Program-made: the position numbers and the translations under genes
The notes under the pieces: generated by a model
Seen by the model: the letters and a program-made list of their open reading frames with translations, nothing else
The model's database searches: none
Told to the model about the DNA's origin: nothing
Assembly: GCA_023434855.1 (NCBI GenBank)
Contig: JAEYSJ010000325.1
Span: 1-51,935, forward strand
Origin: Bacillota bacterium
GTDB lineage: Bacteria; Bacillota_C; Negativicutes; JAEYSJ01
Direction of reading: 5' to 3'
DNA: 51,935 bases
Part shown: piece by piece, positions 1 to 418 of the stretch
Position numbering within the stretch: the first letter of the stretch is position 1
Layout: each line of letters begins with the position of its first letter

Positions 1-99
1 TCCCAAAACACCGGTAATGGTTACACATGCTTTGAGGAATGAACGCCTGCTTAAATTTCTCTTTTGAAACAAACCCCATAAAGTGTCTCTGTTCTTCAT
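1..99 (-). CDS. [NiFe] hydrogenase small subunit, N-terminal fragment (runs off the window)
   Basis: The minus strand opens with ATG at 97-99 behind a GAGGGGGG ribosome binding site, and 33 codons are visible before the window edge. The peptide carries a textbook twin-arginine signal, SRRSFLKACVTITGVLG (residues 17-33), after a short charged N-region beginning MKNRDTLWGL. A long n-region, SRRxFLK and then a small/hydrophobic stretch is the usual start of the small, iron-sulfur subunit of periplasm-facing uptake [NiFe] hydrogenases, exported by Tat together with the large subunit. No iron-sulfur cysteine motif is in view, so another Tat-exported redox protein cannot be excluded. Its 5' region holds an hcp-like promoter, operator and terminator remnant (165-390), which may influence its expression. 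Confidence 0.6.
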   Translation of the reverse strand, partial: MKNRDTLWGLFQKRNLSRRSFLKACVTITGVLG

Positions 100-164
100 G
101 AACTACCCCCCTCGAACCTAGTTTTCCGTAATAATTAACTATTTATATTTTAAATTTATATAGA

Positions 165-302
165 ATGCGCCAATAGGACGCCCTATGGCCGTATAACGGC
201 AAAGGACGTCCTGCGCTCCCATATATTTCCATATAAACCCACTTCATTACAGCCTTTATCTCAGTTGGTTTGTTCACATTAAAAGCAAAATATTCCTGGT
301 AT
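165..302 (-). pseudogene. Collapsed third hcp copy (5' codons joined to the hcp terminator)
   Basis: Read on the minus strand, about 25 codons align with the start of the intact hcp gene at 6392. Hcp has [12 protein letters not shown] and this copy has I-P-G-I-F-C-F-stop-C-E-Q-T, continuing with KGC-x3-VG. The ATG is ATA (300-302), Gln8 has become a TAA stop, and further stops follow. A degenerate AAGGAG and the promoter/operator region up to 386 also match those of hcp. Beyond about position 220 the similarity jumps directly to a hairpin that resembles the hcp terminator at 4697-4739. About 1.5 kb of coding sequence is therefore missing. It cannot make Hcp, but could still yield a short RNA. 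Confidence 0.7.
175..212 (-). terminator. Terminator-like hairpin of the hcp remnant
   Basis: Arms AGGACG...CGTCCT (175-180 with 207-212) enclose an inner GGCCGT/ACGGC pairing. The sequence closely resembles the terminator after the intact hcp gene (4697-4739), including the downstream TTGGC...TATATA. The U-tract is poor, so it may be a leaky terminator or attenuator in front of the hydrogenase gene. Confidence 0.5.
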
Positions 303-370
303 ATTTCTCCTTATATGTCTATTTGCAAATGTTGCTTAATGTTATTGTAATACAGTTACAAAAATAAATC

Positions 371-386
371 GGTACCCATAGCTACC
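371..386. promoter_or_regulatory. hcp-type operator GGTACC-CATA-GCTACC
   Basis: A 16-bp near-palindrome differing at one base from the perfect operator at 6464-6479 between hcp and its divergent Crp/Fnr gene. The flanks are also shared (aaaTC before, AAAA after), and it lies upstream of the hcp remnant in the same geometry. It is likely bound by the same regulator. Confidence 0.6.
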
Positions 387-418
387 AAAAGTAAAATCTT
401 CTAAAAATAATAAAAGAA

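Follow-up and report, generated by a model that had tools for sequence, protein, structure and literature searches.

Genes and features at the locus

The window, by which we mean the whole stretch of 51,935 nucleotides analysed here, covers positions 1 to 51,935 of contig JAEYSJ010000325.1 from a Bacillota bacterium. The features considered below are as follows:

1-99, minus strand: 5' end of a [NiFe]-hydrogenase small-subunit-like gene of the Tat-exported type (33 codons), running past the window edge
106-112, minus strand: Shine-Dalgarno sequence AGGGGGG of the hydrogenase gene, G-rich and present in Sporomusa-group relatives as well
167-216, minus strand: stem-loop resembling the hcp terminator, with an inner 10-bp stem at 175-212 and no T-run behind it
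225-302, minus strand: dead hcp codons (26), with ATG changed to ATA and stops at codons 8 and 14
307-312, minus strand: residual Shine-Dalgarno sequence AAGGAG of the dead hcp copy, read from the sequence and aligned to hcp
344-349, minus strand: -10 box TACAAT, at hcp-like spacing to the operator
371-386, minus strand: HcpR-type operator GGTAGCTATGGGTACC, one base different from the hcp operator
417-436, minus strand: hairpin resembling a terminator, T-run included, located between relic and upstream operon
655-1311, minus strand: gene for a 218-aa protein, following the NIR_SIR gene here and in relatives
1311-2294, minus strand: NIR_SIR-domain (nitrite/sulfite reductase-like) gene with a prismane-associated C-terminal domain
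4697-4737, minus strand: hairpin terminating the intact hcp gene, with a T-rich tail behind it
4749-6392, minus strand: intact hcp (hydroxylamine reductase / hybrid cluster protein)
6464-6479, minus strand: HcpR-type operator of the intact hcp gene
6502-7194, plus strand: HcpR-like CRP/FNR regulator gene, divergent from hcp (Pfam HTH_Crp_2 and cNMP_binding)

The protein encoded by the intact hcp gene is 87-88% identical to the Hcp of five relatives (L089-L093, including G001, Sporomusa ovata) and 84% identical to that of two more, and the best hcp among the matches listed in a search of genome contigs reached 78%. The regulator is 72-77% identical to regulators that adjoin hcp in six relatives (L089-L094). 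At the level of the order, an operator with at most three mismatches was found upstream of hcp at 17 of 18 loci, the exception being L105; some of these operators lie about 850 bp upstream, and two of the 17 loci, L116 and L100, duplicate one another exactly within a single genome. Three relatives' operators head a ferredoxin gene, with hcp next in two of them. At L190 (1506-2343) and L183, an HcpR-type operator heads a ferredoxin-like gene that is followed by hcp, and no such gene stands between operator and start in the window. The operator was absent from the 200 nt upstream of five other hcp paralogues of the order (L084, L086, L087, L117, and L118), in a scan that did not extend to L106-L115.

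The window also carries a second, divergent hcp-type gene (2532-4244) upstream of the NIR_SIR gene, which shares about 50% identity with relatives' hcp genes of the HcpR type and whose upstream 200 nt contain no HcpR operator. At four loci in relatives (L196, L197, L198, and L200) a NIR_SIR gene lies near a different hcp paralogue whose upstream 300 nt lack an HcpR operator, and a 218-aa gene accompanies the NIR_SIR gene at three of them. More generally, the 218-aa protein adjoins the NIR_SIR gene in many of the relatives fetched (about 56-71% identical); it had no match in Pfam or NCBIfam. Four copies of a palindromic repeat of about 160-180 nt, all in the same orientation and with CAGAGGACACAGAGG-type ends, occur in the window (449-619, 18492-18651, 31763-31904, and 36764-36925). 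This repeat is MITE- or REP-like, and its first copy adjoins the hcp relic described below.

A relic of hcp upstream of the hydrogenase gene

Positions 390-165 of the minus strand are a relic of an HcpR-type hcp gene, hcp being a gene of the nitric-oxide response. Read along that strand, it consists of an operator, a -10 box, a Shine-Dalgarno sequence, 26 degenerate codons, a deletion of about 1.5 kb, and a stem-loop. The first-pass annotation had described a collapsed copy of hcp in front of the hydrogenase gene, and this was confirmed. A repeat search returned two collinear direct repeats between relic and intact gene, in the same order and orientation (226-305 with 6316-6395 at 73% identity, and 336-394 with 6429-6487 at 81%). 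The alignment with hcp extends beyond the operator through codon 26 and scores 92, whereas 1000 dinucleotide shuffles gave at most 34. A blastn search with positions 160-420 matched the promoters and 5' ends of Sporomusa-group hcp genes at E-values of 2.9e-15, 6.1e-14, and 1.5e-12 (69-71% identity over about 170 nt). That search covered 380 genomes of the class, 133 of which had a match at E of 0.1 or below, mostly short; as at most two candidates were scored per genome, it is no proof of absence elsewhere.

The coding part is dead, as had also been claimed. Its start has changed from ATG to ATA, and the frame, which reads IPGIFCF*CEQTN*DKGCNEVGLYGN, aligns to the N-terminal 26 residues of Hcp with stops at codons 8 and 14; collinear homology, a lost start, and in-frame stops together mark an hcp pseudogene. 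Past codon 26, about 1.5 kb of hcp has no counterpart, and the homology resumes around its stop codon and at its terminator. The relic codons are identical to hcp at 57-58 of 78 nt in four Sporomusa-group genomes, at 51-53 in three others, and at 56 in the window's own gene. Since relatives carry several hcp-type genes, a spare copy of the HcpR type is unsurprising. An origin from the hcp paralogue found near the NIR_SIR gene in some relatives was considered and rejected: the five such genes examined start FCYQC, and their upstream 300 nt lack the operator (apart from one stretch with three mismatches), whereas the relic has FCF and an operator.

The stem-loop of the relic is likely homologous to the hcp terminator. 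The two align with a score of 30, against a maximum of 24 in 1000 dinucleotide shuffles, although the orientation of the relic stem-loop is ambiguous (the inverted reading scores 32) because both hairpins are palindromic. By eye, it resembles the terminator of the window's hcp and is unlike the hairpins that follow hcp in the 14 relatives whose sequence extends that far (L101 is truncated). A dispersed hairpin repeat was rejected as the source, as the stem sequence was found only at the relic and hcp hairpins and at one further place with three mismatches. The stem-loop is stable, at -23.7 kcal/mol for the 10-bp inner stem and -29.3 kcal/mol for the whole structure alone. The tail behind it is ATTGGCGCATTCTAT, compared with GGCTTTTCTTTTATA in hcp, and has no three consecutive T; with the T-run lost, the terminator is not conserved as such. 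A further terminator score was discarded, as it came out negative for each of the four hairpins, even for the hcp terminator.

These details bear on the proposal, also made at first pass, that the block acts as an attenuator or as a short RNA sharing up to 80 nt with the hcp 5' end. In such a case, an RNA of about 120-170 nt ending at the stem-loop would attenuate the hydrogenase gene as its leader, or stand alone and mimic the 5' end of the hcp mRNA. The stem has indeed been kept with its full 10-bp inner helix, and a nitrite-responsive RNA locus, SnoA, has been described in Bacteroides thetaiotaomicron at the promoter of hcp (PMC13370916, a preprint), where an RNA from the hcp promoter region is proposed as a regulator. 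SnoA, however, lies opposite to hcp, in another phylum and without a hydrogenase. An RNA from the relic would have the same sense as the hcp mRNA, with which its longest exact shared stretch is 15 nt and not 80. The loss of the T-run speaks against attenuation, and Rfam gave no match at gathering scores anywhere in the window. We therefore regard a regulatory RNA ending at the stem-loop as very unlikely.

The operator and promoter of the relic

Only two places in the window match the hcp operator with at most three mismatches: the hcp operator itself and the relic operator, which differs by one base. The latter keeps 11 of the 12 core bases of the palindrome GGTAGCnnnnGCTACC, and its matrix score is 37.0, where 16 related sites range over 36.0-43.2 and no unrelated place in the 52 kb exceeds 11.7. 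Its center lies 29 nt from TACAAT, exactly as in the intact hcp promoter. With the expected start about 41.5 bp downstream of the HcpR site and a TACAAT -10 box, the relic promoter would have a class II layout. The first-pass statement that operator, promoter, and hairpin all persist thus holds for the -10 box, which stands at identical spacing, and for the stem, but needs amending for the operator, which has changed, and for the T-run, which is gone.

The single operator change is a C to G substitution at a base that is C in all 17 order-level hcp sites (three mismatches allowed, two of the sites being identical copies in one genome). At a wider set of hcp loci, inspected by eye, this position is C or T, A once, and never G. 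Positions 3 and 6 of the half-site contact two specificity residues in HcpR (PMC1274295), and by our own mapping the changed base is number 6 in the CRP/FNR half-site, a position to which that study assigns a role in determining specificity.

Whether the promoter of the relic has been retained can be addressed by comparing which of its positions were lost. The alignment of hcp promoters took in 15 of the 17 operator loci (L104 and L116 were omitted). On columns defined by 16 hcp promoters, the relic promoter retains 26 of the 28 invariant columns and 17 of the 25 that vary (p=0.024), and the codons have kept 36 of 47 and 20 of 31 (p=0.18); invariant columns compared directly, 26/28 in the promoter against 36/47 in the codons, give p=0.065 (0.066 in a smaller set), all of these being tests that were picked after looking, are uncorrected, and depend on one another. 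This pattern is at most suggestive that the relic promoter has been kept.

The same figures can be read differently. The relic may be inert and decaying neutrally, with the operator and -10 box persisting because decay is incomplete, and hydrogenase transcription may begin at a separate promoter within the AT-rich spacer (100-165) or come from read-through. Promoter and codons have both lost positions without a significant difference between them (p=0.065), one of the changes falls in the operator core, and the T-run behind the stem has decayed, all of which speaks for this reading. Against this, the losses in the promoter spare the constrained columns and those in the codons do not clearly do so, and the spacer has neither a SigH-type motif nor a SigA-type site of 9/12. 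A promoter scan of the minus strand found no SigA-type match of at least 9/12 between 99 and 445, but as the hcp promoter itself scores only 8/12 and the scan overall gave no more sites than shuffles, the argument that there is no other promoter is weak. Simple read-through is made less likely by the T-run hairpin and the palindromic repeat of about 170 nt that separate the upstream operon, made up of the NIR_SIR gene and the 218-aa gene, from the relic, though the hairpin comes from a terminator scan at chance level (10 sites against 8.7 expected from shuffles, standard deviation 2.8). We consider an inert relic quite possible, if somewhat short of probable.

The hydrogenase gene and its relatives

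The minus-strand frame from position 99 begins MKNRDTLWGLFQKRNLSRRSFLKACVTITGVLG, and 24 of its 33 residues (73%) are identical to the TIGR00391 matches of G012 and of G009; the full protein of the match in G012 (L139) carries PF14720 and PF01058. The 33 residues alone gave no Pfam match, and since the gene is visible for only these codons, it may itself be broken. Of 28 genomes in the order, 26 contain TIGR00391 matches, 74 in all, from which 30 were taken as loci. Our comparison set comprises the 25 genes from 21 genomes that share the N-terminus, leaving aside L140-L144 and the other 44 matches.

First-pass annotation had suggested looking for the block in front of hydrogenase genes in relatives, and there the expectation failed: the 1.4 kb upstream of the related genes contains neither the operator (at most two mismatches) nor an hcp-like stretch in any of the 25 cases. 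Its absence from 25 of 25 upstream regions also speaks for an inert relic. It would also agree with an assembly error joining unrelated stretches, so that hydrogenase gene and relic would not be true neighbors, as the junction recurs in none of these regions; we regard this as the least probable explanation of those considered, and far from likely.

What the relatives have instead is, in about half of cases, a different arrangement. A radical-SAM/SPASM gene precedes 13 of the 25 genes, at least 74.9% identical to that of G012 (one more match is weak, at 30%), and no match to it was found in the window. The motif AGGA-N17-GAAT occurs at -70 to -76 in 11 of the 25 upstream regions and nowhere further upstream in the set. 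It is missing at this position from the window's hydrogenase gene and from 14 of the 25 relatives. Since these 14 include L134, which ties for the best match to the N-terminus of the window's gene with one other, the lack of the motif here does not have to mean that it was lost. Elsewhere in the 52 kb the motif occurs three times against 2.0 expected, never near the hydrogenase gene. A study of Sporomusa sphaeroides KIAC that mapped transcript starts describes the SigH motif as AGGA/GAAT with a spacer of 17-18 nt, and the [NiFe]-hydrogenase gene hynA is named among the genes carrying SigH motifs (PMC12456013). This hynA is probably the same kind of gene as the one in the window, which differs from it in having an hcp relic in place of the SigH motif.

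A possible takeover of the relic promoter

The hydrogenase gene directly downstream of the relic thus has neither the SigH-type motif nor the radical-SAM neighbor found at about half its relatives. We propose that the relic promoter drives this gene. The alignment shows that an HcpR-controlled hcp paralogue lost about 1.5 kb, from around codon 26 to the stop codon, and a rearrangement may then have placed relic and hydrogenase gene together. The relic promoter would start an RNA with an untranslated leader of about 240 nt, which would read through the stem-loop, devoid of its T-run, into the hydrogenase gene, and the gene would thereby respond to NO or nitrite through the HcpR-like regulator encoded at 6502-7194.

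The absence of the SigH-type motif and of the radical-SAM neighbor lends this proposal some support, and to that extent the first-pass idea of an NO-responsive hydrogenase promoter stands. The unchanged spacing between operator and -10 box, the matrix score of the operator, and the sparing of invariant promoter columns count in its favor as well. The proposal is weakened by the operator change, at a position where all 17 related sites have C, by the non-significant difference in retention between promoter and codons (p=0.065), by the lack of the arrangement at all 25 related hydrogenase genes, and by the strong stem-loop, which could hinder the transcript. On balance, we give the takeover of the relic promoter a little less than an even chance, nearly tied with an inert relic.

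Known HcpR systems offer points of comparison. For the HcpR regulon of the CRP/FNR family, the site GTAACnnnnGTTAC has been reported for HcpR2 (PMC1274295), and the present locus resembles it in having the palindrome at hcp or ferredoxin-hcp promoters, an adjacent regulator gene, and a fixed spacing to the -10 box. It differs in that the window's second site, with one half-site base altered, is followed by a dead gene and, beyond it, a hydrogenase gene. In Clostridioides difficile, among the genes changed in the regulator mutant, a site is reported only at frdX-hcp (PMC12915319), which makes a narrow HcpR regulon the usual expectation. A precedent for predicted HcpR control of a hydrogenase exists in Desulfovibrio vulgaris, where a site predicted to be activating lies upstream of the coo (cooMKLXUHF) operon (PMC545781). 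That operon shares with our locus an HcpR-type site upstream of hydrogenase genes, but it encodes a CO-dehydrogenase-associated hydrogenase, has another operator sequence, and is described there with no mention of an hcp relic. For the capture of pseudogene promoters in bacteria, a non-exhaustive literature search returned no relevant case by title or abstract opening.

Going one step further, a respiratory [NiFe] hydrogenase may here have switched its regulator from SigH to an NO-responsive activator of the HcpR type, by way of a promoter donated by a collapsing hcp gene, such that H2 oxidation would be induced alongside Hcp in nitrosative stress. We put this forward tentatively, as a conjecture that may well fail. 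If the relic is inert, the locus represents an ordinary pseudogene beside a change in gene order. If the switch did occur, a pseudogene whose coding part is gone would have handed its neighbor a new regulator through its surviving promoter, and H2 oxidation would be tied to nitrosative stress in this Sporomusa-like bacterium, where its relatives appear to use SigH.
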